DNA of 64,000 bases from assembly GCF_020991475.1 (NCBI RefSeq), contig NZ_JAJMPA010000001.1, positions 2,480,001 to 2,544,000 on the forward strand, in the 5' to 3' direction. A program made the position numbers and the translations under genes. The notes under the pieces were generated by a model. That model worked only from the letters and a program-made list of their open reading frames with translations. It did no database searches and was not told the DNA's origin. Positions 5,249 through 29,125 of the stretch are shown here, piece after piece (the stretch's first letter is position 1; each line of letters opens with the position of its first letter). Source of the DNA: Pedobacter sp. MC2016-14. GTDB lineage: Bacteria > Bacteroidota > Bacteroidia > Sphingobacteriales > Sphingobacteriaceae.

Positions 5249-5275
5249 GTTCCTTTTGATATATTTATGCTGATT

Positions 5276-6115
5276 ATGAAAAGGATTTTAAGTTCAATAT
5301 TGCTGCTTTTAGCAGTTCAGGGGATTGCACAAAGTAAAAAACCAGGCCAGGCCCTGCTCTGGAGGATTAGCGGAAATGGCTTGGCTAAACCCTCTTATCT
5401 CTATGGTACGATCCACATGATTTGTGAAAATGATTTTTACCTGTCCGGATCGTTAAAAGCTGCGGTAGAAGAGGTAGACGGACTTGTCTTTGAACTAAAT
5501 TTAGCAGATTCGGTCTTAAATAAAAAAATACAGCGGCTGATGTATTCTCCCGTTTCTTTGCGCAAGAGGTTAAGTCCTGAAAATTACCACTTACTGGATT
5601 CACTTATGCAGGTTAAGGCTTCCGTTCCATTACAGCAGTTTGAGTATATGAACCTGATGGCCATCAGCAGTTTTCTGTCTTCCAGAATGATGGCCTGTGG
5701 GCAGCCTAAATCTTATGAAGCTTCGCTTTTGGCTCTGGCCAGGGCGAAGCATAAAACCATCGCTGGATTGGAGTCTCCAGAAGAGCAGTTGGTTTTTTTT
5801 AACAAGGCAATTACAGACAGTGTGTTGATAAGTCAAATGCTGGATACGGAGAAAAGTGAAATTTTGTTACAAAAGATGGTAGACCTGTATAAGCAGGAGG
5901 ACATAGAGGCTTTAAACTCAATTGTCGACGACCAGAATGCGAAAAAATGGATGCTGGATGTCCGTAATGCAAATTGGATAAAAGTGATGCCTGGATTAAT
6001 GAAAAAGGAAAGCACCTTGTTTGTAGTTGGCGCAGGACATCTTGGTGCTGAAATGGGTTTAATTAAAAGCCTGAGCAAGCTTGGATATTTGCTGGAGCCG
6101 GTTAAAAGAGATTAG
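5276..6115 (+). CDS. TraB/GumN-family protein
   Basis: A 279-residue exported protein of the TraB/GumN superfamily (Tiki/EreA-like fold), members of which are suspected metal-dependent proteases. The diagnostic N-terminal segment is present: LLWRISGNGLAKPSYLYGTIHM, with the first GxIH-type metal-site histidine. FELNL, GLESPEEQL and the late VVGAGHLGAEMGLI with its second histidine follow. The signal peptide is MKRILSSILLLLAVQGIAQ from 5276; an in-frame ATG at 5267 would add three residues. It lies 27 bases after the TlpA gene on the same strand and is probably the last gene of locus 1. Its substrate is unknown. Confidence 0.88.
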   Translation: MKRILSSILLLLAVQGIAQSKKPGQALLWRISGNGLAKPSYLYGTIHMICENDFYLSGSLKAAVEEVDGLVFELNLADSVLNKKIQRLMYSPVSLRKRLSPENYHLLDSLMQVKASVPLQQFEYMNLMAISSFLSSRMMACGQPKSYEASLLALARAKHKTIAGLESPEEQLVFFNKAITDSVLISQMLDTEKSEILLQKMVDLYKQEDIEALNSIVDDQNAKKWMLDVRNANWIKVMPGLMKKESTLFVVGAGHLGAEMGLIKSLSKLGYLLEPVKRD

Positions 6116-6262: not shown

Positions 6263-6832
6263 ATGGCCGCATATAGTACGTATACAGATGTAGAGTTAAC
6301 ATCCTTATTAAAGGTTGGTGACCAGGCCGCATTTAATGAAATCCATAAGCGTTATTATGCGCTTTTGTATAACCATGCCTTCAAAAGATTACCATATAGG
6401 GAAGAGGTAAAGGATATTCTTCAGGAATTATTTGCTTTTTTATGGAATAACAGAGCGTCTTTGATACTTACTTCAGGACTTGCGGCCTATTTATATTCCT
6501 CTGTTCGTAACCGGGTAATTAATGTTTTTACGAAGCAAAAAGTACGGACAGCTTATGCGGCCTCTTTACAAGATTATTTAGTTGCCGGCGAAAATGTAAC
6601 GGACTGGAGGCTGCGAGAAAAAGAGCTTGCTGCGTTAATAGAGCGGGAAATCACGGCTTTACCACCCCAAATGAGGCGTGTATTTGAGTTGAGCAGGAAT
6701 GAACATTTATCGCACAATGAAATAGCGACGTTGTTAAATACCAGTCCGCTAACGGTAAGAAAGCAGGTGCAAAATGCACTTAAAATCCTTCGCTCAAAAT
6801 TAGGGGCAAATTTATTTTTAACTTTTTTTTAG
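6263..6832 (+). CDS. FecI-type ECF RNA polymerase sigma factor (locus 2)
   Basis: A 189-residue extracytoplasmic-function sigma factor that should direct RNA polymerase to the locus 2 SusCD promoter when released by its FecR partner. Sigma region 2 is visible at residues ~18-85 (FNEIHKRYYALLYNHAFKR, EVKDILQELFAFLWNN, LYSSVRNRVIN). Sigma region 4 is at ~125-180 (LPPQMRRVFELSRNEHLSHNEIATLL, then the recognition helix NTSPLTVRKQVQNALKIL). The C-terminus ends in a short hydrophobic tail (LGANLFLTFF), a trait shared by the other two fecI genes here. fecR follows 67 bases downstream, the standard FecI-FecR-SusC order. Confidence 0.95.
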   Translation: MAAYSTYTDVELTSLLKVGDQAAFNEIHKRYYALLYNHAFKRLPYREEVKDILQELFAFLWNNRASLILTSGLAAYLYSSVRNRVINVFTKQKVRTAYAASLQDYLVAGENVTDWRLREKELAALIEREITALPPQMRRVFELSRNEHLSHNEIATLLNTSPLTVRKQVQNALKILRSKLGANLFLTFF

Positions 6833-6899: not shown

Positions 6900-8039
6900 A
6901 TGGAAAAACAAGAGGCAGAAAGACTATTAGAACGTTACATCGCAGGTACAGCAAGCCCAGAGGAAAATGCCTGGGTTGAAACCTGGTATGCTCGTTTTGA
7001 AGATAAAGTTAGCAATGTAGCTCAGGAGCAGATTGCTGCGGACGAATTGGAAAGCTGGGAGAAATTAGTACAGGATATTAAAAGAAAGCCAGTTATAAAA
7101 TTGTGGCCAGGACTGGTAGCTGCTGCGTCTGTTGTTTTGGTCATCGGAATAGGGTTATTTTTCCTAAACAGGCAGCCCGTAGAAAGTGTGGTCATTGCAC
7201 AGGGTAGTGATGTAAAACCCGGATTAAATGGTGCCTTTTTAAAGCTGGCCAATGGAAAAAGAATCAGTTTAAATTCTAGCGCGAATGGTAAGCTGGCTAT
7301 AGAGTCTGGCATCACCATCACCAAAACCAAAGATGGGGAACTTGTTTACACTTTAGCAGAAGATCAGCATACAGCAAATATTGGAGGATACAACACTATA
7401 GAGACTCCGGCTGGTGGACAATATCAGTTGAAACTTCCTGATGGCACCAACATTTGGTTGAATGCCTCTTCGTCTTTAAAATACCCTGTTAGTTTTGCTG
7501 CTTTAAAAGAAAGAAAAATAGAGTTGGTAGGTGAAGCTTTTTTTGAAGTTAAGCATAATGCCGCTCAGCCCTTTCGCGTAGTGAGTAAGGGGCAGCTTGT
7601 AGAAGATATTGGCACTACCTTTAATATCAACAGTTATGGAGATGAGCTAACTGTGAGCACAACGCTGATAGAAGGAGCGGCCAGAGTGTCCCTTTCAGGA
7701 AATACGGCGTATTCCAAATTACTAAAACCAGGACAGCAGTCTATTGCTACGCTTAATTCGTTATCTGTGAGGGAGGTAAATACAGATAACGTTATAGCCT
7801 GGAAAAATGGCATGTTTATGTTTTACGATGAACCACTTGTAAAAGCGATGCGAAAAATATCCAGATGGTACGGTGTTAAAGTGATTTTTGAAGATCCGGT
7901 CCTGGAACAGTTATCTACCTACGGAACCATAAGTAAATTTAATTCTTTAAGTAAAGTGCTTCAAATGATGGCAAAGGCCGGCTCAATACGATTTGAAGTC
8001 AAAGAAAAAACCATTACCATCATAAAATCAACCAATTAA
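6900..8039 (+). CDS. FecR-family anti-sigma factor (locus 2)
   Basis: A 379-residue single-pass inner-membrane regulator. The cytoplasmic N-terminus (residues ~1-65) should bind the upstream FecI. A transmembrane helix spans about 68-89 (LWPGLVAAASVVLVIGIGLFFL). The periplasmic FecR domain spans ~165-265 (ETPAGGQYQLKLPDGTNIWLNASSSL, ELVGEAFFEVKHN, DIGTTFNINSY). A C-terminal DUF4974/STN-like domain (~308-376, AMRKISRWYGVKVIF) probably contacts the STN domain of the locus 2 SusC. This follows the trans-envelope signalling model known for FecA-FecR-FecI. Confidence 0.95.
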   Translation: MEKQEAERLLERYIAGTASPEENAWVETWYARFEDKVSNVAQEQIAADELESWEKLVQDIKRKPVIKLWPGLVAAASVVLVIGIGLFFLNRQPVESVVIAQGSDVKPGLNGAFLKLANGKRISLNSSANGKLAIESGITITKTKDGELVYTLAEDQHTANIGGYNTIETPAGGQYQLKLPDGTNIWLNASSSLKYPVSFAALKERKIELVGEAFFEVKHNAAQPFRVVSKGQLVEDIGTTFNINSYGDELTVSTTLIEGAARVSLSGNTAYSKLLKPGQQSIATLNSLSVREVNTDNVIAWKNGMFMFYDEPLVKAMRKISRWYGVKVIFEDPVLEQLSTYGTISKFNSLSKVLQMMAKAGSIRFEVKEKTITIIKSTN

Positions 8040-8219: not shown

Positions 8220-11200
8220 ATGTATAAAATTTATACCAAGATTTCGTGCAGCCTGCCGCGCTGCATGACAAAATTTCTATTGATTATGAAGTTAACCACT
8301 GTCATATTGATTGCTGCGATAATGCAGGTGAGTGCTGCCTCTTACGGACAGCGAATCACATTTTCAGAGAAAAATGTGACGCTGGATAAGGTGTTTTCTG
8401 AAATCAGAAAGCAAACAGGTTATAACGTGTTCCTGTTGGATGCCATTAAAAGCTCTGAAAAGATGGATGCTGATTTTAATAATCTGCTACTTAAGGATGT
8501 GCTTGATGATATTTTTAAGAATAGAGATATGAGTTACACGATCCAGGATCAGACCATTATTGCAAGAAAGAAAAAGACTTCTTTGCTGGAGGATGTAGTG
8601 AATTATTTTAATAAAATTAATGTCCGTGGACGTGTTATAGACGAAGAGGGTATTCCATTAGCCGGGGCTTCAGTTTTATGGGAGAAAGGCCATATGGTGA
8701 CCAATACAGATGGTGATGGAAGATTTTACTTGCCTGGCTTAGATGAAAAGGCTGTGTTAACAATTTCCTATGTAGGCTTTAAAACTAAAAGCCTTAAAGT
8801 TAAACCAGATATGGGCGAGATTAAAATGGAGCGTTTTGATGCCAATCTGGACGCTGTACAAGTTATTGCCTATGGTACCAATACCAGGCGCTTTAGCGTA
8901 GGCTCTGCGGTAACCATTACTGCTGAAGACATTGCCAGTCAACCTGTGACCAATGTTTTACAAGCCCTACAGGGACGCGTTCCAGGTCTTGAGTTAAGAC
9001 AAAGCAGTGGTGCACCCGGAAGTTCGGTTAAACTTCAGATCAGGGGACAAAATACTTTGAGATCTTCTTTTGCGTTTGGCAGTGATGATGAACTTTACAA
9101 CCAACCTCTGTTCATTATTGACGGCGTACCTTTTGCACCTCAAAACAGAGATATTAATCAATATTTTGCACTTGGTGCAGCCCGTACTGGTGACGGAATG
9201 GAACTGGGTGTAAGTCCATTCAATAACATTAATCCGGCCGATATTGAGTCAATAACTGTGCTTAAAGATGCTGACGCGACTTCAATTTATGGCACTCAGG
9301 GTTTAAATGGTGTAATATTGATTACGACCAAAAAAGGTAAAGGTGGTAAAACCAGTTTTACGGCAACTGTAGATAAAAGTATCAACAGGGTAGCACGGCC
9401 ATTGCAAATGCTGAATACCCAGCAATACCTGGAATTAAGAAAAGAAGCTGCTACCAACGATGGGATCGCACCAGACCAATATGATATGTATAGTTTCCCT
9501 GATTTGGTGGTCTTTGACCAGAATAAGTATACTAATTTCTACGACGAATTCTTTAACAATACAGCTAGTACAACACGCACGCACGGGAGTTTGACCGGAG
9601 GTTCTGAAAATACAAACTTTGTATTTAGTGGTGGATATTCAAAATCGGATTATAATTTCCCGGGTGATTACGCGGAGAAGACTTTTACCATGCACTCTGC
9701 CGTTCATCATGGCGTATGGAATAACAGGTTAACCTTTGATTTCGGGACTGATTATTCTTATAATAGAAATAATACTTCAGGGAATCCTAACATTACGTCA
9801 ATTTACCTTACTCCGCCAAACCTGCCGGATATGCTGGATGCATCGGGAAACCTGGTCTGGAATTACAAAGGGGTAGATATTACCCAGTTTCAACAGTACG
9901 CTTATATAAAAGAAACCAGTTTGGCACAATCTTATAATTTAAATACTTCTTTAAGGCTAGGCTGGAAAATCATGAACGGGCTTAAGTTTACCACGAATTT
10001 GGGATATAGCCGGTTTAATACTACACAGTATACCACACATCCTAAAAGTTCGGTAAACCCGGCTTATAATGCGATATCCAGGGTTGAGGTTGGAGATCAG
10101 AAGTTTGAAACCCTTAACATCGAGCCGCAACTGGATTTTGAACGCAATCTAGGCAGGGGTGTTTTAAATGTGCTTTTGGGTTCTACCTATAAGAAAAGCC
10201 TGGATTACAGTACCAATATTATGGCACAAGGGTATGGAAGTGAAGCATTGATGGGATCTTTAAGCGGGGCGACCAGTTTTCAAATTGGAGACAATAATAC
10301 CATTTATAAATATAGTGGAGGATTTGGAAGGCTCGGCTACATTTACAACCAGAAGTATATCCTGAGTTTAACTGCCAGGAGAGACATTTCAAGTAATTTT
10401 GGGTCTGGACGCCAGCTTGGCAATTTTGGTTCAGCAGCATTGGGTTGGATTTTTTCAGAAGAACAGGGCTTTAAAAACCTACTGCCTTTTGTAAGTTATG
10501 CCAAACTCTACGGAAGTTACGGTACCACAGGAGGTGATGGTGTAGAAGCATACCGTTACAAACCATACTGGATATCTGGCACCACTGCCCCCTTGTTTCA
10601 GGGTGTACGTTCGTATATTCCTTATAATTTATATAACCCCGATTACAGCTGGAGCACAAAGAAATCCCTGAACATCAGTATGGATCTTGGATTTTTAAAC
10701 AACAGACTGATCATTAACGGTACATGGTATAGAAATAGAACGGGAAACCAATTGATTGCGAGTGCCTTGCCAATTCAGGTTGGTTTTAACGATGTTACAG
10801 AAAATTTCCAGGCTGTATTGCAGGATAAAGGATGGGAATTTACACTGACTTCAACCAATTTGAAGTCGAAGGATTTTAACTGGAACTCTTCATTTAACAT
10901 TAGCTTTAACCGTAACAAGCTCATTGCTTTTCCCGGCTTAGAAAACTCTGCATATAATTATAGTTATTTTATTGGGCAGTCTACCAGTGCGGTGCTTGGC
11001 TTTAATTATAAGGGCGTTAACCCGGAAACAGGTTTGTTTGAATTTTATAAAGCCAATGGAGAAGTGACCAGCAACCCAGACTATAACCTGGCTTCTAAGG
11101 GTGGCGATCAAAGCATAATTGCTGATTTGCAACCTAAATTTTTCGGAGGTTTAGGCAATAATTTTACGTATAAAAATTTCAGTTTATCTGTATTTCTCCA

Positions 11201-11627
11201 ATTCAGTAAAACGCTGGGTATAAACTATATTGGAGGACTCTATTCACAGGGTAGAACTGGAATCGGCGGTTTGGGCAATATTCCTGTTATAGCGCTGGAT
11301 CATTGGAAAAAGCCTGGCGACATCAGTGATATTCAGAAAGCAACTTCCACGTATGGCGAGGTTTCTACTGCTGCAGGTGCCTTCCAGATATCTTCTGGTG
11401 CCATTAGTGATGCTTCTTATATCCGGTTAAAAACGGTGTCTTTAGGGTATACACTTCCTCAGGCTGTATTTAGAAAAGCTGGTATGCAGAACTTTAAGGT
11501 TTATGTGAATACGCAGAACTTATTTACGATAACCGGTTATAAAGTAGGTGATCCGGAAGCTGCAGGAAGTACTTACGGCATGCCGATTCAGCGCAACATT
11601 GCATTTGGTTTATCCTTTAACTATTAA
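8220..11627 (+). CDS. SusC/RagA-type TonB-dependent receptor with STN domain (locus 2)
   Basis: A 1135-residue outer-membrane transporter. An unusually long signal region (MYKIYTKISCSLPRCMTKFLLIMKL, then a hydrophobic core ending near QVSAASYGQ) precedes an STN signalling domain (~45-115, RITFSEKNVTLDKVFSEIRKQ). A carboxypeptidase-regulatory-like domain follows (~135-215, VRGRVIDEEGIPLAGASV), then the plug (~225-370: NVLQALQGRVPGLELRQS, LQIRGQNTL, LFIIDGVPF, VLKDADATSIYGTQGLNGVILITTKKG), then the barrel. The STN domain is what couples a receptor to FecR/FecI, and those genes lie just upstream. The barrel and plug resemble the locus 4 SusC, including an insertion between IDGVPF and SPFN. Confidence 0.96.
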   Translation: MYKIYTKISCSLPRCMTKFLLIMKLTTVILIAAIMQVSAASYGQRITFSEKNVTLDKVFSEIRKQTGYNVFLLDAIKSSEKMDADFNNLLLKDVLDDIFKNRDMSYTIQDQTIIARKKKTSLLEDVVNYFNKINVRGRVIDEEGIPLAGASVLWEKGHMVTNTDGDGRFYLPGLDEKAVLTISYVGFKTKSLKVKPDMGEIKMERFDANLDAVQVIAYGTNTRRFSVGSAVTITAEDIASQPVTNVLQALQGRVPGLELRQSSGAPGSSVKLQIRGQNTLRSSFAFGSDDELYNQPLFIIDGVPFAPQNRDINQYFALGAARTGDGMELGVSPFNNINPADIESITVLKDADATSIYGTQGLNGVILITTKKGKGGKTSFTATVDKSINRVARPLQMLNTQQYLELRKEAATNDGIAPDQYDMYSFPDLVVFDQNKYTNFYDEFFNNTASTTRTHGSLTGGSENTNFVFSGGYSKSDYNFPGDYAEKTFTMHSAVHHGVWNNRLTFDFGTDYSYNRNNTSGNPNITSIYLTPPNLPDMLDASGNLVWNYKGVDITQFQQYAYIKETSLAQSYNLNTSLRLGWKIMNGLKFTTNLGYSRFNTTQYTTHPKSSVNPAYNAISRVEVGDQKFETLNIEPQLDFERNLGRGVLNVLLGSTYKKSLDYSTNIMAQGYGSEALMGSLSGATSFQIGDNNTIYKYSGGFGRLGYIYNQKYILSLTARRDISSNFGSGRQLGNFGSAALGWIFSEEQGFKNLLPFVSYAKLYGSYGTTGGDGVEAYRYKPYWISGTTAPLFQGVRSYIPYNLYNPDYSWSTKKSLNISMDLGFLNNRLIINGTWYRNRTGNQLIASALPIQVGFNDVTENFQAVLQDKGWEFTLTSTNLKSKDFNWNSSFNISFNRNKLIAFPGLENSAYNYSYFIGQSTSAVLGFNYKGVNPETGLFEFYKANGEVTSNPDYNLASKGGDQSIIADLQPKFFGGLGNNFTYKNFSLSVFLQFSKTLGINYIGGLYSQGRTGIGGLGNIPVIALDHWKKPGDISDIQKATSTYGEVSTAAGAFQISSGAISDASYIRLKTVSLGYTLPQAVFRKAGMQNFKVYVNTQNLFTITGYKVGDPEAAGSTYGMPIQRNIAFGLSFNY

Positions 11628-11637
11628 AGCAACGAAA

Positions 11638-13080
11638 ATGAAATTTCATACATCATATTTAAAAATAACCACTCTTTTAATCATCATATGCTTGGTTAAC
11701 AATGCATGTAAAAAGTTGGTAGAGATTCCTGATAATCCTGCCAACAGGGTGGCAGATGCACTTGTTTTTACCGATAGTGCCAATGTAATGAGTGCTATGG
11801 CAGGCGTTTACAATGGTATTGGTGCCTCATCTGGAAATCCTTCTTTTTTAAGTGGGGCAATGACTGCGGCAACAGGCTTATCATCTGATGAGTTGAATAC
11901 GACACAAGGCTGGGACGAGGGCGCTGTGCAACTTCAGAACAATAATATCCTGGCAGATAATTATACGGTTAGTGACTTATGGAATGGTGCCTATGGTACA
12001 GAGAAGCTGTATATTGTAAATGCTTGTTTGCAAGGTATAAATGGCAGCACCGGAATAAGTGCTTCCTTAAAGAAACAACTGCTGGCTGAGTTAAAAATGG
12101 TAAGGGCATTGTATTATTTTACCCTCGTTAACTTATACGGTGGTGTGCCGTTGGTGACCAGCATTGATTATAAATTAACCAGAACCCTGCCAAGGGCATC
12201 GGTAGATCAGGTTTATGCTCAAATTTTTTCTGATCTTTTGGATGCGGAAAGGGACATCAGTATAGATTATCCGTCTTCTGGTCGTGCCAGACCAAACACT
12301 TATGTAGTAAAAGCTTTGCTTGCGAAGGTATATCTTTACAGGAAAGAATGGAGAAAGGCTGCTGATCTTGCGACTGAGGTGATTGGTTCTGGTCATTATT
12401 CGCTGGTGCCCATTGACAATATTTTTCTTACAGGAAGTAATGAAGCGATTTGGCAATTGCCCGCAATTAGCTTAATCACTTCACAAACTGCAGAAGCACG
12501 TGCTTTTCTTGCTTACCCCTACGCTCCCGGTCAGTTGCCAAGTTATCAGGTTACGGATGCACTGTTGAATGCTTTTGAAATTGGTGATCCGAGAAAGGAA
12601 AAATGGCTAAACCTTACCCGAATTCAGACTGGAGCAACAACTTTTGAAGATATTTATGCACCGTATAAATATAAAAACTGGGATACAAAGGCAAGCACGA
12701 TTGAGGATTATATGATGTTGCGCATGGGCGAGCAATACCTGATCCGTGCAGAAGCCCTGGCTCAACTTAACCTGGTAGGGGATGCGGTTGATGACATCAA
12801 CGAGCTGCGGGAACGTGCCCGAGGAACAACTACTGCACTGCCTGCTTATTCCAGGACAATTTCTAAAGCGGATTGCCTGGAAGCTGTGGCGAAGGAAAGA
12901 AGGATAGAACTGATGTGTGAATGGGGCAACCGATGGTTTGACCTGAAGAGAACAGGTGAGGCTGTGACTGTACTAACTACGCTTAAGCCTGACTTTGAAG
13001 ATAACGATCTGCTTTATCCCATTCCAAGGACCCAAATACAATTGAATCCTTTTCTGATCCAGAACCTGGGTTATAAATAA
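11638..13080 (+). CDS. SusD/RagB-family outer-membrane lipoprotein (locus 2)
   Basis: A 480-residue surface lipoprotein partnering the SusC that ends 10 bases upstream. The start at 11638 gives a signal peptide with lipobox LVNNAC (Cys24) and KKLVEIPDNP. An upstream in-frame ATG at 11548 lies inside susC and is rejected. SusD features include EKLYIVNACLQGI, LLAELKMVRALYYFTLVNLYGGVPLV, EQYLIRAEALAQLN and ERRIELMCEWGNRWFDLKRTG. The closest relative in the window is the locus 4 SusD (shared GVPLVTS/DVPLVLTS, RWFDLKRTG, and YPIP...QNLGY ending). The ligand cannot be told from sequence. Confidence 0.95.
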   Translation: MKFHTSYLKITTLLIIICLVNNACKKLVEIPDNPANRVADALVFTDSANVMSAMAGVYNGIGASSGNPSFLSGAMTAATGLSSDELNTTQGWDEGAVQLQNNNILADNYTVSDLWNGAYGTEKLYIVNACLQGINGSTGISASLKKQLLAELKMVRALYYFTLVNLYGGVPLVTSIDYKLTRTLPRASVDQVYAQIFSDLLDAERDISIDYPSSGRARPNTYVVKALLAKVYLYRKEWRKAADLATEVIGSGHYSLVPIDNIFLTGSNEAIWQLPAISLITSQTAEARAFLAYPYAPGQLPSYQVTDALLNAFEIGDPRKEKWLNLTRIQTGATTFEDIYAPYKYKNWDTKASTIEDYMMLRMGEQYLIRAEALAQLNLVGDAVDDINELRERARGTTTALPAYSRTISKADCLEAVAKERRIELMCEWGNRWFDLKRTGEAVTVLTTLKPDFEDNDLLYPIPRTQIQLNPFLIQNLGYK

Positions 13081-13103
13081 ATAACACCTATAGATTTCAT
13101 GAT

Positions 13104-13143
13104 GTACCTGTCTGCTTTTGCAGGCGGGCAGGTACTCTTTTTT
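13104..13143 (+). terminator. Hairpin with T-run after susD (locus 2)
   Basis: GTACCTGTCTGC (13104-13115) pairs with GCAGGCGGGCAGGTAC (13120-13135) across a TTTT loop, with a 4-base bulge on the right arm, followed by TCTTTTTT. This has the form of an intrinsic terminator. It would separate SusCD expression from the ABC/Gld genes or allow partial read-through. Confidence 0.65.
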
Positions 13144-13152
13144 AAAAAATAT

Positions 13153-14091
13153 ATGAAACATCCGATTTTAAAAATTGAAAATTTATCTCACAGGTACAGT
13201 ACTTCATGGGCTATCCGTGACATCAACCTGGAAATTAATGAGACTGGTATTGTAGGTCTGCTGGGTTCCAATGGTGCTGGTAAATCAACCACAATGAACA
13301 TCATGTGTGGCGTGTTAAACAATACGGAAGGGAAGGTTTACATTGATGGGATAGACATGAGTATGCATCCTGAGGAGGCAAAAAAACGCATTGGTTTTTT
13401 ACCCCAAAACCCGCCACTATACCTGGATTATACCGTAGATGAATACCTGGTTTATTGTGCCCAGCTCCGTTTAATTGCGAAGAATAAAATTAAGCAGGCG
13501 GTAGAAGAGGCTAAGGAGCGATGTGGAATTGCCCATTTTAGCAACAGGCTGCTTAAAAACCTGTCTGGGGGGTATAAACAGCGTGTGGGGATAGCGCAAG
13601 CCATTATTCATCGCCCTAAGCTGGTGGTATTGGACGAGCCTACAAATGGCCTTGACCCCAACCAAATTGTGGAAGTCCGTTTGCTGATTAAGGAGATTGC
13701 GGCCGACAGGGCAGTTATCCTGTCATCTCATGTGCTTTCTGAAATACAATTGCTGTGCAACGACATCACTATGATTGAGGGTGGAAAGATTGTTTTTGCT
13801 GACAGCATGGAAGCTTTTAACAATTATGTAGAGCCGCATAGTGTAGTGGTACAGTTGCACAATGCGCCTGCAGTAGCTGAATTGCTAAAAATACCAGGCG
13901 TTACGAGTGTGGATGTGTTGACCGAAAGACAGCTGCGTATCTTCTTTAACGGCGATCAGGAAGTAACGGAACGCATTGTAGAAACCAGCGTTCAAAACCG
14001 CTGGCAGTTGAGAGAAATTAGTCTCGACAAAAGTTCTGTAGATGAAATATTTGCACAGTTGTCTAATAAATCAAAAATTAAAACTACCTAA
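13153..14091 (+). CDS. GldA-like ABC transporter ATP-binding protein (locus 2)
   Basis: A 312-residue ABC ATPase that should energise the permease encoded next. It has Walker A GSNGAGKST (~38-46), the signature LSGGYKQR (~137-144), Walker B LVVLDEPTNGLD (~157-168) and the switch-region histidine in LSSHVLSEI. The C-terminal ~100 residues (GVTSVDVLTERQLRIFF, LREISLDKSSVDEIFAQL) match the tail seen in GldA-like ATPases. The start at 13153 is chosen because the frame upstream of it (from 13099) runs through the terminator hairpin. The locus 3 protein is a full-length paralogue of identical size. Linkage to SusCD rather than gliding genes is the notable point. Confidence 0.92.
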   Translation: MKHPILKIENLSHRYSTSWAIRDINLEINETGIVGLLGSNGAGKSTTMNIMCGVLNNTEGKVYIDGIDMSMHPEEAKKRIGFLPQNPPLYLDYTVDEYLVYCAQLRLIAKNKIKQAVEEAKERCGIAHFSNRLLKNLSGGYKQRVGIAQAIIHRPKLVVLDEPTNGLDPNQIVEVRLLIKEIAADRAVILSSHVLSEIQLLCNDITMIEGGKIVFADSMEAFNNYVEPHSVVVQLHNAPAVAELLKIPGVTSVDVLTERQLRIFFNGDQEVTERIVETSVQNRWQLREISLDKSSVDEIFAQLSNKSKIKTT

Positions 14092-14101
14092 TCATATTGT
14101 A

Positions 14102-16507
14102 ATGAACACTTCATTAAAAATTGCAATCGCTGAGCTGAAGACCTTATTTTACTCACCTATTGCCTGGTTTCTGACCATTATCTTTGTTTTTCAAAGTTCA
14201 TTAACGTATACCTCTATTGTAGAAGAATGGCTCACTAAACAGGAATTGGGCGGTGGCTATCTTCGGTCCGTTGGGTATTTGACCAATAATGTATTTGGGT
14301 TTTACGGGCTTTACGGAGCAATGGTCAAAAAAATCTTTTTATATCTTCCATTGATTACCATGGGCCTGATTAGCCGTGAGACCAACAGTGGCACCATCAA
14401 ATTACTGTATTCTTCTCCTGTTAAACTAAGAGAGATTGTGGGCGGTAAATATATTGCTATGGTTTTTTATAGCTTTTTGCTAACCCTGGTCCTTTCTATA
14501 TTTGTATTCACCAGTACATTTATCATTAAATCTGCCGATACATCTTCCATGCTGGTGGGCTTGTTTGGTATTTTTATGCTCCTGTGTACCTATTCTGCTA
14601 TCGGTTTGTTTATGTCGGCATTGACCACATATCAGGTAGTAGCGGCACTGAGTACGCTGGTGGTATTTGGTGTATTCAGTTACATTGGTACGGTTTGGCA
14701 GGATATTGATTTTATCAGAAGTCTGACTTACTTTCTTTCTATTACCTCAAGAACGGATCATATGACTGTTGGTTTGCTGAGTAGTAAAGATGTGATTTAC
14801 TTTGTTGTAATTATTGCCATGTTCCTGATGTTTACATTTTTCAGGTTACAATCTGACAGGAAAACGGTTTCTACTTTACATGCTGTTATAAAGTATTCAG
14901 CAACCTTTGCTCTGGCGCTTCTTATAGGTTACGTAAGCAGTATGCCTAGGTTTATCGCTTCTTACGATGGCACAGGTACAAAAGTATTTACACTCCATCC
15001 AAATGCCTTGAAAGGGGTAGAACAATTGGGCGATGAACCTTTAGAAATTACTTCGTACATCAACTTACTTGATCCATTTATATGGCAGGGTTTACCGAAT
15101 CAGCGCAATACGGACCTGGACCGTTGGGAGCCTTACCTGAGGGCTAAGCATAATGTGACTTTAAAGTACGTATATTATTATGACATGCCTGGAAAGGAAC
15201 AGCAGCTGATGGAGAATAATCCTGGGAAAACGTTGAAGCAAATTGCTGAAAATTCTGCCAAGTCTTTTCACATGAGTATGGATAAATTTAAAACTCCGGA
15301 AGAAATCAGAAAAGAGGTAGACCTGCGTACAGAAAATAACCGTTATGTTATTCAGCTAAAGTCCAAAGGAAAATCAACCTTTTTAAGATTGTATAATGAT
15401 ATGAAAACTTTTCCTTCAGAAACGGAGATTGCTGCAGCTTTACACAGGTTAACGGCAAAAAGCTTTCCGAAGATTGTTTTTGTAGAAAGTGAAATGGAGC
15501 GTGGCAGAAATCCTCAGGGAGATAGGGACTATGGAATTCTAAGCAATGGCATTGGTACCAGAGAGTCATTAATTAACCAGGGTTTTGATACCGAAAGCAT
15601 TTCTTTAACTGAACAGGAGATTCCTGCGGATGCTTCTGTTTTAGTGATTGCTGGTCCACGTAAGGATTTCAGTCCTGTGGGAATGGCCCAAATTCAGCGC
15701 TATATAGATGGTGGAGGCAATTTATTAATTACGGCTGAGCCTGGAAAACAAACTGTCATTAACCCCTTACTTAAGGGTTTGGGTGTCCAGTTAATGGATG
15801 GTCAGCTGGTGCAAGACGACAATCTATTGAATGTGGGTAAACCAAAGGGCAACCAGGGACCAAGCATGGGAAGCGTGGGCATTTCTATCAATGGACAGTC
15901 TATGGGTGCTAGCAATGATGGATTTACTTACGAGTTGATTAAGGCTAAACTAACTGATGCTGCTGCAAGCTATTCCTGGCATTTGCAGGAACCGGTAAAG
16001 AATGGTTCGGTGATTGGTATGATGGGGGCAACTGCTTTATCTTATGTAAAAACGGGACCTTTTACGATACAGCCACTTGTGGTAACAGACGAACGGGTAA
16101 GCTGGTTAAAAAAAGGCAAATTGGTTGCGGATTCTGGCACCGTTGCTTTTGTGCCGGCAGATGGGGATGTTAAAGGAAGTTTCCCTACGGTATTGGCTTT
16201 AAACCGTAAAGTTAATGGCCGGGAACAGCGTATCGTGATCTCAGGAAGTGTTGATTTGTTCAGTAATGGGGGCTTAATGAGACGAATGGAGACGGAACCG
16301 GCAAATATGGCATTGGGTATTGGTCTGTTTAGCTGGTTTGCGAACAATGAGTTTCCGGTAGATACCCGTCATGAGCCAATGAAAGACAATAGATTTAATT
16401 TGACTTCTGCGGGTTTAAAAACGATAAAAATAGTTTACATGGGCGTATTGCCAGGAATATTACTGGTAATTGGTTCTATATTTTTAATGAGGCGTAAAAG
16501 AAAATAG
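14102..16507 (+). CDS. GldF/GldG-like ABC permease fusion protein (locus 2)
   Basis: An 801-residue membrane protein. Residues ~1-240 are an ABC-2 type permease with about six helices (LFYSPIAWFLTIIFVFQSS, SRETNSGTIKLLYSSPVKL), the GldF-like part. Residues ~290-775 form a large extracytoplasmic GldG-like domain (LVIAGPRKDFSPVGMAQIQRYIDGGGNLLITAEPGK). A final helix with a basic tail (LPGILLVIGSIFLMRRKRK) follows. In gliding Flavobacteria GldF and GldG are separate proteins; here they form one chain. It begins 10 bases after the ATPase and ends 2 bases before the MutS-like gene. Direction of transport and substrate are unknown. Confidence 0.88.
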   Translation: MNTSLKIAIAELKTLFYSPIAWFLTIIFVFQSSLTYTSIVEEWLTKQELGGGYLRSVGYLTNNVFGFYGLYGAMVKKIFLYLPLITMGLISRETNSGTIKLLYSSPVKLREIVGGKYIAMVFYSFLLTLVLSIFVFTSTFIIKSADTSSMLVGLFGIFMLLCTYSAIGLFMSALTTYQVVAALSTLVVFGVFSYIGTVWQDIDFIRSLTYFLSITSRTDHMTVGLLSSKDVIYFVVIIAMFLMFTFFRLQSDRKTVSTLHAVIKYSATFALALLIGYVSSMPRFIASYDGTGTKVFTLHPNALKGVEQLGDEPLEITSYINLLDPFIWQGLPNQRNTDLDRWEPYLRAKHNVTLKYVYYYDMPGKEQQLMENNPGKTLKQIAENSAKSFHMSMDKFKTPEEIRKEVDLRTENNRYVIQLKSKGKSTFLRLYNDMKTFPSETEIAAALHRLTAKSFPKIVFVESEMERGRNPQGDRDYGILSNGIGTRESLINQGFDTESISLTEQEIPADASVLVIAGPRKDFSPVGMAQIQRYIDGGGNLLITAEPGKQTVINPLLKGLGVQLMDGQLVQDDNLLNVGKPKGNQGPSMGSVGISINGQSMGASNDGFTYELIKAKLTDAAASYSWHLQEPVKNGSVIGMMGATALSYVKTGPFTIQPLVVTDERVSWLKKGKLVADSGTVAFVPADGDVKGSFPTVLALNRKVNGREQRIVISGSVDLFSNGGLMRRMETEPANMALGIGLFSWFANNEFPVDTRHEPMKDNRFNLTSAGLKTIKIVYMGVLPGILLVIGSIFLMRRKRK

Positions 16508-16509
16508 CT

Positions 16510-19185
16510 ATGCAATTTGCAACAGACCGGCAAACGCTGGAGGACCTGAATATTTTTGGTAAACACGGAAATAATTCTGTGTTTGCCATTTTTAATAAAA
16601 CCGTAACACGAGGGGGTGCAGCTTTGTTAGAGGAGATGTTTAGGTATCCTTTAACTGACGAAAAGGTCATTAACCGCCGAAGTGGCATTATTCAATATTT
16701 TGCCGGGACCAATTTAGCCTTTCCTTTTGATACGGCTATTTTTGACGCAATTGAGCAGTATTTGCTGAATACTGATGAGCGAACTAAATTGCTGGGGCAG
16801 GAGCAGTCGGCTACTAAAAGGCTCAGCAATTTGATTGCTATGGATACAGAGACCTTAATTATCCATAAGGGAATTGATGCAGTAGTAGATTTGATTCGGG
16901 GGCTGCAAGGCTTCGTGACATCGTTTGAGTTGAAAGCCGGGCATCCTTACCAGGAGGAGATGGATGGAATAAGACATTTACTGTCTTCGGCAGTTTTTGA
17001 AAGTGTGGCTGTTGCACTTAGCAAAAGTAAACGATCTGCAATGGAAGATGCTGAACTTGATGTGCTTTTTCGCTTTCGGGAGCGTGACTTGCTGCAGAAA
17101 TTACTTCGGCAGATTTACTTTCTGGATGTTTATCTGTCGCTCGCCAAGGTTGCCAATTCAAAAGGATTTTGTTTTCCTAAAGCATTACCTGGAGATCATC
17201 ATTATGCTAAGTTAGAAGGCCTATATCACCCACAAATTATAAACGCGGTCACCAATTCCATTGAAATTACGCCAAACAGCAATGTGATTTTCCTTACAGG
17301 GGCAAATATGGCAGGTAAGTCTACCTTAATGAAGTCTTTGAGCGTGGCCTTGTACCTGGCGCACATGGGTTTCCCAATTGCCGCCGTAACGATGGAGTTT
17401 TCGGTATTAGATGGGATTTTTACCACCATAAACCTGCCTGACGATTTAGGGATGGGGGCCAGCCATTTCTATGCAGAGGTGTTGCGCGCAAAAAAAGTAG
17501 CAAACGAATTGAAAACTAAAAACTTGTTTGTCCTTTTTGACGAGTTGTTTCGTGGTACCAATGTAAAAGATGCAGCAGAAGCTACAATAGCTTTTACAGA
17601 AGCATTTGCAAAAAAGCGAGACAGTATGTTTATGATCTCTACACACATTATTGAAGCAGGGGAAATATTGAAGACGCGATGTGAAAACATTAATTTTGTG
17701 TATTTACCTACCAGAATGGAAGGGACAAAGCCGGTTTATACATATAAATTGGAGAAAGGGCTTACTGCAGACCGGCATGGAATGGTTATTATTAAAAATG
17801 AGGGCATTTTGGAATTGCTGGAACGTGGCACCCTTCCTTCGGTTTGGAATGAATTTATAGTTGATAAACAAACGCTAACGGACCTGAACCTTTTAGGGAA
17901 ATACAAACAGCATTCCATTTACAATATCTTTAATAAAGTACATACTAAGGGAGGAGAAAGATTGCTTCAGGAGATGTTTCAACATCCTTTGTTAGATGCA
18001 GATCTTATCAATGAGCGGAGTACGCTTTTTAAGTGTTTTGAGGAAATGGACCTCGAATTTCCTTTTGAACAGCATATGTTTGAACAAGCAGAAAGTTATC
18101 TTGGAATGGCTGCCGGAAATAATTATCTTGCAGTACTGGTTGATATGCTTGTTGCAAAAGGCAAAGCATCGTTTTTACACGATGGGCAATTTGATTTGAT
18201 TTATGGCGGTTTGCTGGCAACGGTTGAATTTTTAAATGTTTGTTATGATTTCGTGAAGCGGCTAAGTGCTGCACAGCAATTAACAAATCAAGTGGATCAT
18301 CCTTATAAAAAGGAAGTTGAGCTGCTGGAGCTGCTGTTTGCCGAGCCTGATTTGCAATGGATAAAATTGGAACACAGTAAGGCAAATCTTTCGATAGCTA
18401 AGGTGGCTAGATATGATTTCTTGCTGAAACACAAGCACCGGGAAAAGTTAGCCGCTTTATTAACCTCTGTTTATCGTCTGGATGTATTTATCTCGGTAGC
18501 TAATGTTGCAAAGGAAAGGGGCTTTGCTTACGCAAATGCTTTACCGAAGGAGTTAAATGTGATCCGAAGTACTGCTTTATGGCATCCGGCTTTATTAAAA
18601 GGAATAGCTAATCCGGTTTCATTTAACCAGCAGCGTAATATGATTTTCCTGACCGGCGCAAATATGGCAGGGAAGTCTACTTTTATGAAAGCTGCTGGAA
18701 TAGCTGTTTATCTTGCCCATTTAGGATTCCCTGTTGCAGCCAGGGATATGCAGTTTTCAGTTTTGGATGGCTTATATTCTTCTATTAATGTTCCTGATAA
18801 CTTAAACATGGGCTATAGTCATTTCTACGCTGAAGTATTGAGGGTAAAACATGTTGCAGAAGAAGTGGCCAGCGGAAAAAATATGTTGGTATTATTTGAC
18901 GAGTTGTTTAAAGGAACCAATGTAAAAGATGCTTACGATGGCACGTTAGAGGTAAGCAGATCTTTTGCTAAGTATAGGAACTGTTCCTTTATCATTTCTA
19001 CGCACATCATAGAAGTTGGAACAGCCTTAAAAGAAGAAGATAGTAATTTGCAGTTTTCTTATTTACCTACGGTAATGGAGGGAAACAAGCCTACATATAC
19101 TTATGTACTGCAGGAAGGTATAACCACTGATAGACAAGGTATGATGATTATTGAAAATGAGGGGATTTTGGAAGTTTTAAATTAG
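16510..19185 (+). CDS. Tandemly duplicated MutS-like ATPase
   Basis: An 891-residue cytoplasmic protein made of two MutS-related copies fused head to tail with a period of ~452 residues. Copy 1 has Walker A GANMAGKST (~264-272) and Walker B VLFDELFRGTNVKDA (Asp ~344). Copy 2 has the same motifs at ~716-724 and ~797. Both also share TLxDLN, a lever-like helical region, FSVLDG, SHFYAEVLR, STHIIE, and a C-terminal DRxGMxII..EGILE motif. Neither copy has the MutS mismatch-recognition domain (no FxE segment) nor a Smr domain, so this is not housekeeping MutS. Real MutS works as a dimer, and the fusion may be a built-in dimer. It is probably co-transcribed with the ABC/Gld genes (2-base gap). Confidence 0.88.
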   Translation: MQFATDRQTLEDLNIFGKHGNNSVFAIFNKTVTRGGAALLEEMFRYPLTDEKVINRRSGIIQYFAGTNLAFPFDTAIFDAIEQYLLNTDERTKLLGQEQSATKRLSNLIAMDTETLIIHKGIDAVVDLIRGLQGFVTSFELKAGHPYQEEMDGIRHLLSSAVFESVAVALSKSKRSAMEDAELDVLFRFRERDLLQKLLRQIYFLDVYLSLAKVANSKGFCFPKALPGDHHYAKLEGLYHPQIINAVTNSIEITPNSNVIFLTGANMAGKSTLMKSLSVALYLAHMGFPIAAVTMEFSVLDGIFTTINLPDDLGMGASHFYAEVLRAKKVANELKTKNLFVLFDELFRGTNVKDAAEATIAFTEAFAKKRDSMFMISTHIIEAGEILKTRCENINFVYLPTRMEGTKPVYTYKLEKGLTADRHGMVIIKNEGILELLERGTLPSVWNEFIVDKQTLTDLNLLGKYKQHSIYNIFNKVHTKGGERLLQEMFQHPLLDADLINERSTLFKCFEEMDLEFPFEQHMFEQAESYLGMAAGNNYLAVLVDMLVAKGKASFLHDGQFDLIYGGLLATVEFLNVCYDFVKRLSAAQQLTNQVDHPYKKEVELLELLFAEPDLQWIKLEHSKANLSIAKVARYDFLLKHKHREKLAALLTSVYRLDVFISVANVAKERGFAYANALPKELNVIRSTALWHPALLKGIANPVSFNQQRNMIFLTGANMAGKSTFMKAAGIAVYLAHLGFPVAARDMQFSVLDGLYSSINVPDNLNMGYSHFYAEVLRVKHVAEEVASGKNMLVLFDELFKGTNVKDAYDGTLEVSRSFAKYRNCSFIISTHIIEVGTALKEEDSNLQFSYLPTVMEGNKPTYTYVLQEGITTDRQGMMIIENEGILEVLN

Positions 19186-19227: not shown

Positions 19228-19803
19228 ATGAATTGGTTAAGTAGCACTAAAAAATCAGATCCTGTAAACGAGGAGTTGCTGTTAAAGCGATATCAGGAGA
19301 CTGATGATTTGGTATTGCTTTCAGAATTGTTTCAAAATCATTCATCTATGGTATATTACGTTTGTTTACGCTATCTGCAGGATGCAGAGGCGAGTAAAGA
19401 TGCAGTGATGCAGATTTTTGAAGAACTGATTACCAAAGTTAAAAGGCAGGAAATTAAGCATTTCGGGAACTGGTTATATGGGTTGAGCCGCAACCATTGT
19501 TTGATGCAATTACGTGCCGGCAAAAAAATGCCCCAAGTTCCTTTTGAAGATTTTGTGGAATCTCCTGACTTTTCGCATCAAGAGGATCCAGAAGGGAAGG
19601 AAAGGAAACTGACTGCACTGGAACAATGTTTGGAAAAGCTTCCTGAGCGGCAAAAGCAAAGCATTCAATTGTTTTTTTTGCAGGAAAAATGCTATAAGGA
19701 TATTGTAGACCATACCGGATTTAGTTTAAATGACGTTAAAAGCTACATACAGAATGGTAAGAGGAATTTAAAAATTTGCATGGAAAAAAATCGTGAAGAG
19801 TAA
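19228..19803 (+). CDS. ECF-type RNA polymerase sigma factor
   Basis: A 191-residue sigma-70 family protein, distinct from the three FecI types. Region 2 is visible at ~25-95 (LSELFQNHSSMVYYVCLRYLQDAEASKDAVMQIFEELI, GNWLYGLSRNHCLMQLR). Region 4 is at ~130-185 (LEKLPERQKQSIQLFFLQEKCYKDIVDHTGFSLNDVKSYIQNGKRNLK). It lacks the hydrophobic tail of the neighbouring FecI proteins. Its end overlaps the next gene by 11 bases, so the two are translationally coupled and the next protein is very probably its anti-sigma partner. It lies 42 bases after the MutS-like gene. Confidence 0.88.
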   Translation: MNWLSSTKKSDPVNEELLLKRYQETDDLVLLSELFQNHSSMVYYVCLRYLQDAEASKDAVMQIFEELITKVKRQEIKHFGNWLYGLSRNHCLMQLRAGKKMPQVPFEDFVESPDFSHQEDPEGKERKLTALEQCLEKLPERQKQSIQLFFLQEKCYKDIVDHTGFSLNDVKSYIQNGKRNLKICMEKNREE

Positions 19804-21058
19804 TCATCCCGACATATCATTAATCAGGAAGTATCTTAACGGAGAGCTTGATGGACCTGCTATGTACCAGCTGGAAAGGCAGGCACAGGATGATCCTATG
19901 TTGATGGATGTGATTACGGGCATGGAAATGGGAGATAGAAATGGGGATGCAAAACAATTTGAGGAAATCAGCCAGCTAATTACAAACCGTATTGCTGAAA
20001 AACGTTCTGTAAAGTTGATTTCCTGGAAAACTTTTTCCATAGCGGCATCCTTGCTGATAGGTATTGGGTTTATTGCCTTTTTTATGCTGGATAAGCCAGC
20101 GGATGTGGCTTTGGTTACGCAGTCTAAAGAGGTAATTCAATCTAAAGAGGTAATTGAACAGGCAAAACCAGATACTTCTGTTGCTATCAAAGAAGTACCC
20201 TTGCCTGAAATGGAGGCGATTAAATCTAATCCAACTTTATTAGCAGTTAGAAAGAAAACAAGTAGAAAAGTTAAAGGCTCGCGTGTAGAACCAGGTATTG
20301 CCATGGCTGATTTGGCAAGAAAAGATTCTATAATTTACAACGCAGAGGCTTTGAACGAAGTAGTGGTTATAGGGTATGGCGTGCAAAAGAAAACATCAAT
20401 TACGGGTTCGGTTTCCACGATAGATACCTCTTTGAAGGCAAAGGCTACCTTGCAGGATGCGTTGGTTGGTCGTTTGGCTGGTATAAGTGTGTCAAAAAGT
20501 AAAAGAGAGAGGTCTGAGGCTAAGCCACTTAAAAAAGATGCTGAAAATAGCATAAGGATTAGGGGGATGAGTACCTTAACAGGTGATCAGAAACCATTGT
20601 TTATTGTGGATGGAATGCCTTACAATGGAGATATCAATGCGCTGGATCCGAAGGTGATTTCGTCCTTTGAGGTTTTAAAAGATGCTTCTGCAACTGCGTT
20701 GTATGGATCCAGGGCTGCAAATGGTGTGATTATTATAACTACTACGAATACCCTTAATGAGGTAGTTGTTGCTGCCCATGGAGCTGTAAAAAAGCAAAAA
20801 CCTGAACCTTTAGTGGGCTGGAAGGTTTATGAGCACTATTTAGAAAAAGAAGCTACACTTGGCGATAAAAGCAAAGGAAAAGTGACGCTTACCTTTACGC
20901 TCGGGCCTGAAGGAAAACCATTAAATTTGAAGGTTGTGAAAAGTGATGGCGATGCAATGAGTAAAAAGGCAATTGAATTGATTACCAATGGATCAAAATG
21001 GCATCCTGGCAAAGGGATGAACGATAAAGAAATTAAGCTTAAGGTTAAGTTTCATTAG
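19793..21058 (+). CDS. Chimeric anti-sigma-like / SusC-plug / TonB C-terminal protein
   Basis: A 421-residue single-pass membrane protein starting with GTG. Residues 1-75 are a cytoplasmic, zinc-finger-less anti-sigma-like region (ISLIRKYLNGELDGPAMYQLER). A membrane helix spans ~79-99, then a linker with an 18-bp duplication. Residues ~188-317 are a SusC-type plug (ALNEVVVIGYGVQKKTSITGSV, IRIRGMSTLTG, LFIVDGMPYNGDINAL, VLKDASATALYGSRAANGVIIITT). After a second LNEVVV motif, ~340-421 match a TonB C-terminal domain (GKVTLTFTLGPEGKPLNLKVV, GSKWHPGKG). A receptor plug in an inner-membrane protein with a TonB-like tail would not be a transporter. Sensing of receptor or TonB status is my inference. 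Confidence 0.8.
   Translation: MKSNHPDISLIRKYLNGELDGPAMYQLERQAQDDPMLMDVITGMEMGDRNGDAKQFEEISQLITNRIAEKRSVKLISWKTFSIAASLLIGIGFIAFFMLDKPADVALVTQSKEVIQSKEVIEQAKPDTSVAIKEVPLPEMEAIKSNPTLLAVRKKTSRKVKGSRVEPGIAMADLARKDSIIYNAEALNEVVVIGYGVQKKTSITGSVSTIDTSLKAKATLQDALVGRLAGISVSKSKRERSEAKPLKKDAENSIRIRGMSTLTGDQKPLFIVDGMPYNGDINALDPKVISSFEVLKDASATALYGSRAANGVIIITTTNTLNEVVVAAHGAVKKQKPEPLVGWKVYEHYLEKEATLGDKSKGKVTLTFTLGPEGKPLNLKVVKSDGDAMSKKAIELITNGSKWHPGKGMNDKEIKLKVKFH
20120..20155 (+). repeat. 18-bp tandem duplication inside the chimeric sigma-partner gene
   Basis: CAGTCTAAAGAGGTAATT is followed at once by CAATCTAAAGAGGTAATT (one difference), giving QSKEVI twice in the periplasmic linker. It is in frame and looks recent. 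Confidence 0.85.
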
Positions 21059-28180: not shown

Positions 28181-29119
28181 ATGGACAGTATTGTTAAAAT
28201 AGAGAACCTATCACACCGATATGGCAGGGATTGGGCTGTAAAAGACATCAATTTCGAAATTAAGGAAAATGAAGGAATCCTTGGATTATTAGGTGCCAAT
28301 GGCGCCGGAAAATCTACCATCATGAACATCCTTTGTGGTGTACTTACGCAAACTACGGGAAACATTTTCATTGGTGGGATAAATCTGGCCAAAGAGCCTG
28401 AAAAAGCGAAAAAGTTATTGGGCTTTTTGCCTCAGAACCCACCGCTGTATTTTGATTTTACAGTAAAAGAGTACCTTACTTATTGCGCACACCTTAGACT
28501 CATTCCCGAAAAACAAATAGGTGAAGCTGTAGACAGGGCCATGGAAAAATGTGGCGTGGCGCACTTTCACAAACGATTAATCAGTAACCTCTCTGGCGGA
28601 TACCGCCAGAGGGCCGGTATTGCGCAGGCCATTTTGCACACACCCAGATTAGTGGTGCTGGATGAGCCTACCAACGGTTTAGATCCTAATCAGATCCTGG
28701 AAGTTAGGGCATTGATTACAGAGATTGCCGAAGAACGTTCCGTAATCTTCTCCTCACACATTCTTTCTGAGGTGCAGGCCACCTGTAAACATATCAGAAT
28801 GATAGAAGGTGGGAAAATGGTATTTGAAGACAGTATGGATGCTTTTAACAACTACATCCAGCCAGATAGTTTGCTGGTGAGCTGGCGCAGGCCACCAGCA
28901 CTTGCTGAAATGCTGGCCATCCCAGGCATTACAAAAGCAGAAGCTTTAATGAACGGGCAGTTTCGATTGCATTTCCTTGAAGACCCTGATATCACCGAAA
29001 TGGTAATTGATACAAGTGCTGCCCATGATTGGCGTCTTAGGGAAATTAGTCTGGAGAAAAGTTCCCTAGAAGCCATTTTTGCCCAACTATCCAATAAATC
29101 AAAGAAATCTGAATCTTAA
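28181..29119 (+). CDS. GldA-like ABC transporter ATP-binding protein (locus 3)
   Basis: A 312-residue ABC ATPase, paralogue of the locus 2 protein along its whole length. It has Walker A GANGAGKST, signature LSGGYRQR, Walker B LVVLDEPTNGLDPNQ, the switch histidine in FSSHILSEV and the same C-terminal domain ending IFAQLSNKSK. The matching LSNKSK ending and the equal length point to gene duplication rather than independent recruitment. It should pair with the permease fusion that starts 6 bases downstream. Confidence 0.93.
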   Translation: MDSIVKIENLSHRYGRDWAVKDINFEIKENEGILGLLGANGAGKSTIMNILCGVLTQTTGNIFIGGINLAKEPEKAKKLLGFLPQNPPLYFDFTVKEYLTYCAHLRLIPEKQIGEAVDRAMEKCGVAHFHKRLISNLSGGYRQRAGIAQAILHTPRLVVLDEPTNGLDPNQILEVRALITEIAEERSVIFSSHILSEVQATCKHIRMIEGGKMVFEDSMDAFNNYIQPDSLLVSWRRPPALAEMLAIPGITKAEALMNGQFRLHFLEDPDITEMVIDTSAAHDWRLREISLEKSSLEAIFAQLSNKSKKSES

Positions 29120-29125
29120 ATAACG

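Follow-up and report, generated by a model that had tools for sequence, protein, structure and literature searches.

A paired MutS-core ATPase without a clamp domain in a SusCD-linked ABC transporter operon of Pedobacter

RESULTS AND DISCUSSION

A paired MutS core in an envelope operon

The gene that follows an ABC permease gene in Pedobacter sp. MC2016-14 encodes two complete MutS-core ATPase halves, the members of an ancient N-type and C-type pairing. The protein lacks the mismatch-recognition and clamp domains of MutS, and the pair recurs as a fixed component of an envelope operon. MutS-type ATPases are DNA-mismatch clamps, and MutS2 is a ribosome-collision factor. Given its constant place in the envelope operon, the paired core is probably an ATPase co-opted for work with a membrane transporter and not for DNA repair. 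A stripped MutS core kept as an obligate N/C pair in a transport operon of about one-sixth of the genomes of the family, and repeatedly fused, would extend the known scope of MutS-type ATPases. The gene lies in a 64,000-nucleotide stretch of DNA (the window, meaning the whole of the stretch analysed). The operon and the features of the fused protein are summarized in Table 1.

Table 1. Operon genes and features of the fused MutS-core protein, in window coordinates
Feature	Position	Strand	Basis
ECF sigma factor (Sig70_bacteroi1), probable operon regulator	6263..6832	+	NCBIfam TIGR02985, 133 bits, above cut-off
FecR-type anti-sigma factor	6900..8039	+	Local FecR profile reference member; partly from position between sigma and SusC
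SusC/RagA-type TonB-dependent outer-membrane transporter	8220..11627	+	ORF and local profile
SusD-type lipoprotein, probably starting at a later ATG	11548..13080	+	Pfam SusD_RagB 3.2e-23, SusD-like_3 3e-20
GldA-like ABC ATPase, Walker A/B and LSGG intact	13099..14091	+	Pfam ABC_tran 7e-34; GldA_ABC_ATP 5.8e-77, below equivalog cut-off
ABC permease (NosY/ABC-2-like) fused to periplasmic GIFT-fold (GldG-like) domain	14102..16507	+	Pfam ABC2_membrane_2, ABC_transp_aux
Paired MutS-core ATPase, N-type and C-type fused	16510..19185	+	891 aa, ATG start
N-type half, MutS domains III and V	16510..17841	+	Pfam, motifs, tree
Walker A, N-type half, GANMAGKS	17299..17322	+	Motif search
Walker B Asp-Glu, N-type half, DELFRGTN	17539..17544	+	Motif inspection
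Junction or linker between halves, approximate, limits uncertain	17842..17853	+	Split homologues compared
C-type half, MutS domains III and V	17854..19185	+	Pfam, motifs, tree
Walker A, C-type half, GANMAGKS	18655..18678	+	Motif search
Walker B Asp-Glu, C-type half, DELFKGTN	18898..18903	+	Motif inspection

Architecture of the fused protein

The original prediction was of two full copies about 452 residues apart with intact Walker A and B motifs, lacking mismatch-recognition and nuclease domains, and all of this is confirmed. Taken alone, the N half matches Pfam MutS_V (5.7e-28) and MutS_III (6.7e-13), as does the C half (1.1e-26 and 4.4e-10 respectively). Aligned to each other over 440 aa, the two share 44% identity (E = 1e-131). 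The Walker A motif is at residue 264 in the N half and residue 716 in the C half, a spacing of exactly 452. The Walker B motif (DELF), the H-loop and an S-H-F-Y-x-E stretch that is the counterpart of the MutS trans signature are intact in both. At the DNA level the halves can be aligned in register only over short stretches of 114 and 56 nt, so the duplication behind the fused gene must be old. An AlphaFold2 model of the whole chain, calculated from a tested 18-row alignment, has a pLDDT of 87.4 and a pTM of 0.79. Its best structural matches are the cores of MutS, MSH and MutS2 proteins (Z about 28–37, rmsd about 3, ~390 residues).

None of MutS_I, MutS_II, MutS_IV or Smr gives a Pfam match to the fused protein. 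Aligned by profile with the genome's own MutS1, it starts at domain III, and that MutS1 has about 90 more residues at the position of the clamp. The clamp domain is the part that gives MutS its grip on DNA. The lever (residues about 91–235) is all-helical in the AlphaFold2 model and about neutral in charge. Just 5% of its columns are conserved at 90%, compared with 39–40% in the ATPase part, and each half has a single conserved basic lever position (R188 in N, R189 in C). With the clamp domain missing and almost no conserved basic residues in the lever, the sequence does not support a role as a clamp on nucleic acid. The idea of a pseudo-dimeric clamp therefore survives in part. The pseudo-dimer is upheld by the ancient N/C duplication, by split genes that overlap or abut, and by the confident model of the fused chain; the nucleic-acid clamp is not. 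Conservation of the ATPase combined with a weakly conserved lever says little about the identity of the client.

Relation to known MutS-type proteins

The pair can be aligned with MutS1 and MSH proteins from the start of domain III to the end of domain V, and shares their Walker A and B motifs, signature and H-loop. It differs in lacking the mismatch-recognition, connector and clamp domains, and in consisting of two halves of an old duplication, often fused and linked to an envelope operon. Its scores fall far below the cut-offs of the MutS1 equivalog models (265 of 480 and 230 of 642 bits). MutS2 likewise has a core without domains I and II, but the pair has no Smr domain and scores 141 of 400 bits against the MutS2 equivalog, and MutS2 of the window's genome is a separate gene elsewhere. 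As the pair genes do match MutS models, automatic annotation is liable to label them as DNA repair proteins.

The third-best NCBIfam match is KamC (NF052383; 211 bits, or 121 for a single half), a MutS-type ATPase described by NCBI as a reactivase of lysine 5,6-aminomutase, a role outside DNA repair. This raises the possibility of a chaperone- or reactivase-like ATPase that acts on an enzyme or an imported product and not on the ABC transporter. A single-type relative (L092) adjoins an amidohydrolase gene, and a gene of similar size and placement is found in several other Chitinophagaceae-like loci, which speaks for such a role. Yet the likeness to KamC is one of the ATPase core, with scores under the cut-off of 300 bits, and we saw no aminomutase genes in the operon. 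The constant partner is an ABC permease, and no cytoplasmic enzyme is constant there. We therefore regard a reactivase role as unlikely.

The genome of the window contains MutS1 (L001), MutS2 (L003), six paired loci and a 660-aa MutS-like protein (L002, 1444–3426, minus strand). The last shares with the pair a MutS core from which the clamp has been lost, but it has hydrophobic helices in the clamp's place, is single-copy and lies outside the operon. Proteins of this 660-aa class are the next-best matches in most of the Bacteroidota genomes searched. A role in anti-phage defence was rejected, since PADLOC matches the MutS protein only through weak P-loop hits. The open-licence literature yielded no description of such a pair, and no paper that links MutS in this way to KamC or to SusC/GldG; papers in which MutS and SusD co-occur concern other matters, judging by their titles.

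Phylogeny and distribution

In our trees the halves of the paired type form one clade (SH-aLRT support 99) that divides into N-type (91) and C-type (99) groups. Sister clades under one node indicate a single ancient duplication. In two Bacteroidales MAGs (L015, L016) the order is swapped, with the C-type first, and both types are retained. A search of 399 genomes of the family found the paired genes in 67, with E-values up to 1e-150. Outside it, whole-genome searches found them to be rare, in G531 and the Bacteroidales MAGs. Walker A was found in 155 of the 156 halves from 78 pair loci, and every half has Walker B. A candidate pair in G1085 was discarded, being a single-type gene amid arginine-type biosynthesis genes (neighbours judged by sequence start).

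The operon in the window

The permease gene ends at 16507 and the MutS ORF starts at 16510, confirming the predicted 2-base gap to the upstream operon. A scan for an internal promoter in the operon gave no excess over shuffled sequences. The permease ORF is listed from 14042, with the conserved start at residue 21 by alignment. Structure searches with the model of the permease (pLDDT 85, pTM 0.82) place its membrane part nearest to NosY of NosDFY (Z about 20). For the periplasmic part the nearest match is the GIFT fold of IFT52/OST48 (Z 20–22, with 22.5 for IFT52).

The operon had been described as ABC/Gld. The kind is right, with a GldA-like ATPase and a GldF-like permease carrying ABC_transp_aux, but the genes are SusCD-linked paralogues. 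The ATPase scores 259 of 402.6 bits against the GldA equivalog, and the neighbouring permease 70 of 288.5 against GldF, both below cut-off. The best ABC_transp_aux match of the genome, presumably its GldG, is located elsewhere.

The gene following the MutS ORF encodes a sigma factor, and there is no M16 gene in this operon itself. Behind an ECF sigma factor lies an odd fusion of 421 aa (19793–21058), in which a TonB-receptor Plug domain and a TonB C-terminal domain are joined to a membrane-like stretch; it may be a signalling anti-sigma/TonB hybrid. Upstream of the operon, a TraB/PrgY/gumN-family protein (5267–6115) adjoins thioredoxin-like genes.

Linkage of the pair to an ABC permease

We examined the context of 78 loci with the pair, drawn from about 65 genomes, and used 32 single-type loci as a control. 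Genes were called mechanically, and neighbours were labelled using locally built profiles plus Pfam on representatives. The pair lies within an ABC-permease operon in 77 of the 78 loci, so its homologues are not in random contexts. In 76 it is the permease gene that immediately precedes the pair, separated from it by a median of 2 bp. The ABC ATPase is found in 75 loci, SusC in 73 and SusD in 73; truncated contigs and swapped gene order account for some of the absences. In one locus (L011) the gene for a met-zincin peptidase lies between the permease and the pair. The linkage recurs in widely separated parts of the pair tree and extends to other families. By comparison, no single-type locus (0/32) has the permease within the surrounding 14–22 kb (Fisher p = 6e-27, a value that ignores shared ancestry). 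In Chitinophagaceae-like genomes (L090–L093 and L095) the single-type core adjoins a gene of ~446 aa. In a set of 61 genomes the accessory ABC system was present in 6/6 with the pair and 6/55 without it (p = 1.7e-5, again ignoring shared ancestry). An operon partnership of the MutS pair with the ABC permease is thus well supported.

The single pair locus without an adjoining ABC gene (L057) belongs to a genome (G019) in which it is the one free-standing pair. Five ABC operons of that genome lack a pair, and their permeases cluster with the pair-linked ones. This is the pattern expected if one pair serves several transporters in trans. Several accessory ABC loci in the window's genome have no pair, including a second SusCD-linked operon with an ABC ATPase and a GldFG-like permease (28181–31420), and in genome G006 a related permease is present and the pair was not found. 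Since pair-less operons of the same kind occur, this type of transporter, taken overall, can do without the pair. One locus also counts against an obligate, dedicated pair; in L060 only a decayed remnant of the N-type gene is left (9700–9980), and the C-type gene and the ABC operon are still open.

These contexts also bear on whether the pair might bind DNA or RNA at its loci, either suppressing or promoting recombination between SusCD paralogues, or controlling events on the operon transcript or its ribosomes. Membership of the MutS superfamily is in keeping with such a role. MutS2 acts on recombination and, as in structure 7qv3, which is among the matches of our model, on collided ribosomes, and in the genome of the window the loci are multicopy. 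However, domains I, II and IV and Smr are all absent, and the levers are near neutral with a single conserved basic position each. Ten other pair genomes examined in full have about one pair each, and so no paralogue problem to solve. Moreover the linkage is to one class of ABC permease and not to SusCD in general, since SusCD operons with permease-ATPase-permease order (12 permeases, one clade) never have the pair. A nucleic-acid role is accordingly improbable.

Peptidase neighbors and a possible function in uptake

A gene for a secreted peptidase usually lies downstream of the pair. This is of the M16 family in 42 of the 78 loci, and the M16 neighbors inspected have a signal-like N-terminus and HxxEH. 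Other loci have S41 (L200), trypsin-like (L165) or met-zincin (L011, L161) peptidases, and in L164 an S8 peptidase gene is upstream of the ATPase gene. Still others have alpha/beta hydrolase genes. From these neighbors the substrate may be a peptide, and the presence of SusCD upstream in 73 loci suggests uptake as the direction of transport.

In Fus-type import (PMC6793856, PMC6071955) a TonB-dependent transporter, a periplasmic M16 protease and an inner-membrane transporter are encoded in one cluster (FusA-FusC-FusD). TonB-dependent transporter and M16 genes are likewise clustered in 42 of the 78 related operons, and we consider protease-associated import of this type to be the nearest functional analogue. 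The pair operon differs in being of SusCD type and in having the MutS pair as well as a NosY-like ABC permease with a GIFT-fold domain. MutS, SusD and Bacteroidetes were looked for in the text of PMC6793856 and are not mentioned.

A different reading of the same neighbors makes the pair an accessory for regulation or immunity that is dispensable for uptake, with the ABC system a LanFEG-like exporter giving, for example, self-protection from membrane-active peptides. The ABC ATPase does score well against lantibiotic-protection ATPases, and peptidases with an ABC-2-like permease would fit peptide detoxification. Against this, the upstream SusCD genes point to import, and no biosynthetic or toxin gene was seen among the annotated neighbors. 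This is very unlikely in our view and, like the nucleic-acid and reactivase roles, is less favoured than service to the transporter.

We give about an even chance to the pair being an obligate (pseudo)heterodimeric, clamp-less cytoplasmic ATPase that is the dedicated partner of the GldA/GldFG-like ABC transporter in a SusCD uptake operon. More tentatively, this MutS-fold pair could have been recruited as a heterodimeric motor or regulator of the transporter in protein or peptide uptake, with the membrane transport complex as its client. In the first of these readings SusC and SusD would carry a protein or peptide across the outer membrane, and the secreted peptidase would cleave it. The ABC complex, with its NosY-like membrane part and GIFT-fold periplasmic part, would handle the product or power a periplasmic step. 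The MutS heterodimer, predicted to be cytoplasmic, would bind ATP in two composite sites, and its opening and closing might regulate, assemble or recycle the ABC complex or a protein client, in preference to nucleic acid. Membership of the operon would also agree with a shared but separate task.

Fusion of the two halves

The original prediction described the gene as a tandem duplicate in a single chain. The duplication is correct, but the commoner state is two adjacent genes (50/78 loci), and the single chain (28/78) is a repeated secondary fusion. The state changes at least six times on a tree of 72 pairs, from which six fused loci whose N-half Walker A reads ANMGGKS are omitted. The window's genome has both states, with five fused loci and one split with a 4-bp gene overlap (L013). 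Fusion confined to this genome was ruled out, as the 28 fused loci in the larger family sample are distributed over several genera. These natural split and fused versions provide a direct test of asymmetric ATPase sites. A lone 183-aa C-type ATPase fragment is found in L146 (9915–10466), with no ABC operon nearby. The linker of the fused copy in L010 (about 9900–10070) is made up of 21-bp tandem repeats encoding RSKDEG-like units, and that of L012 contains a 23-mer with four other near-copies. Both are suggestive of fusion by insertion of interspersed repeats, though not as a general route.
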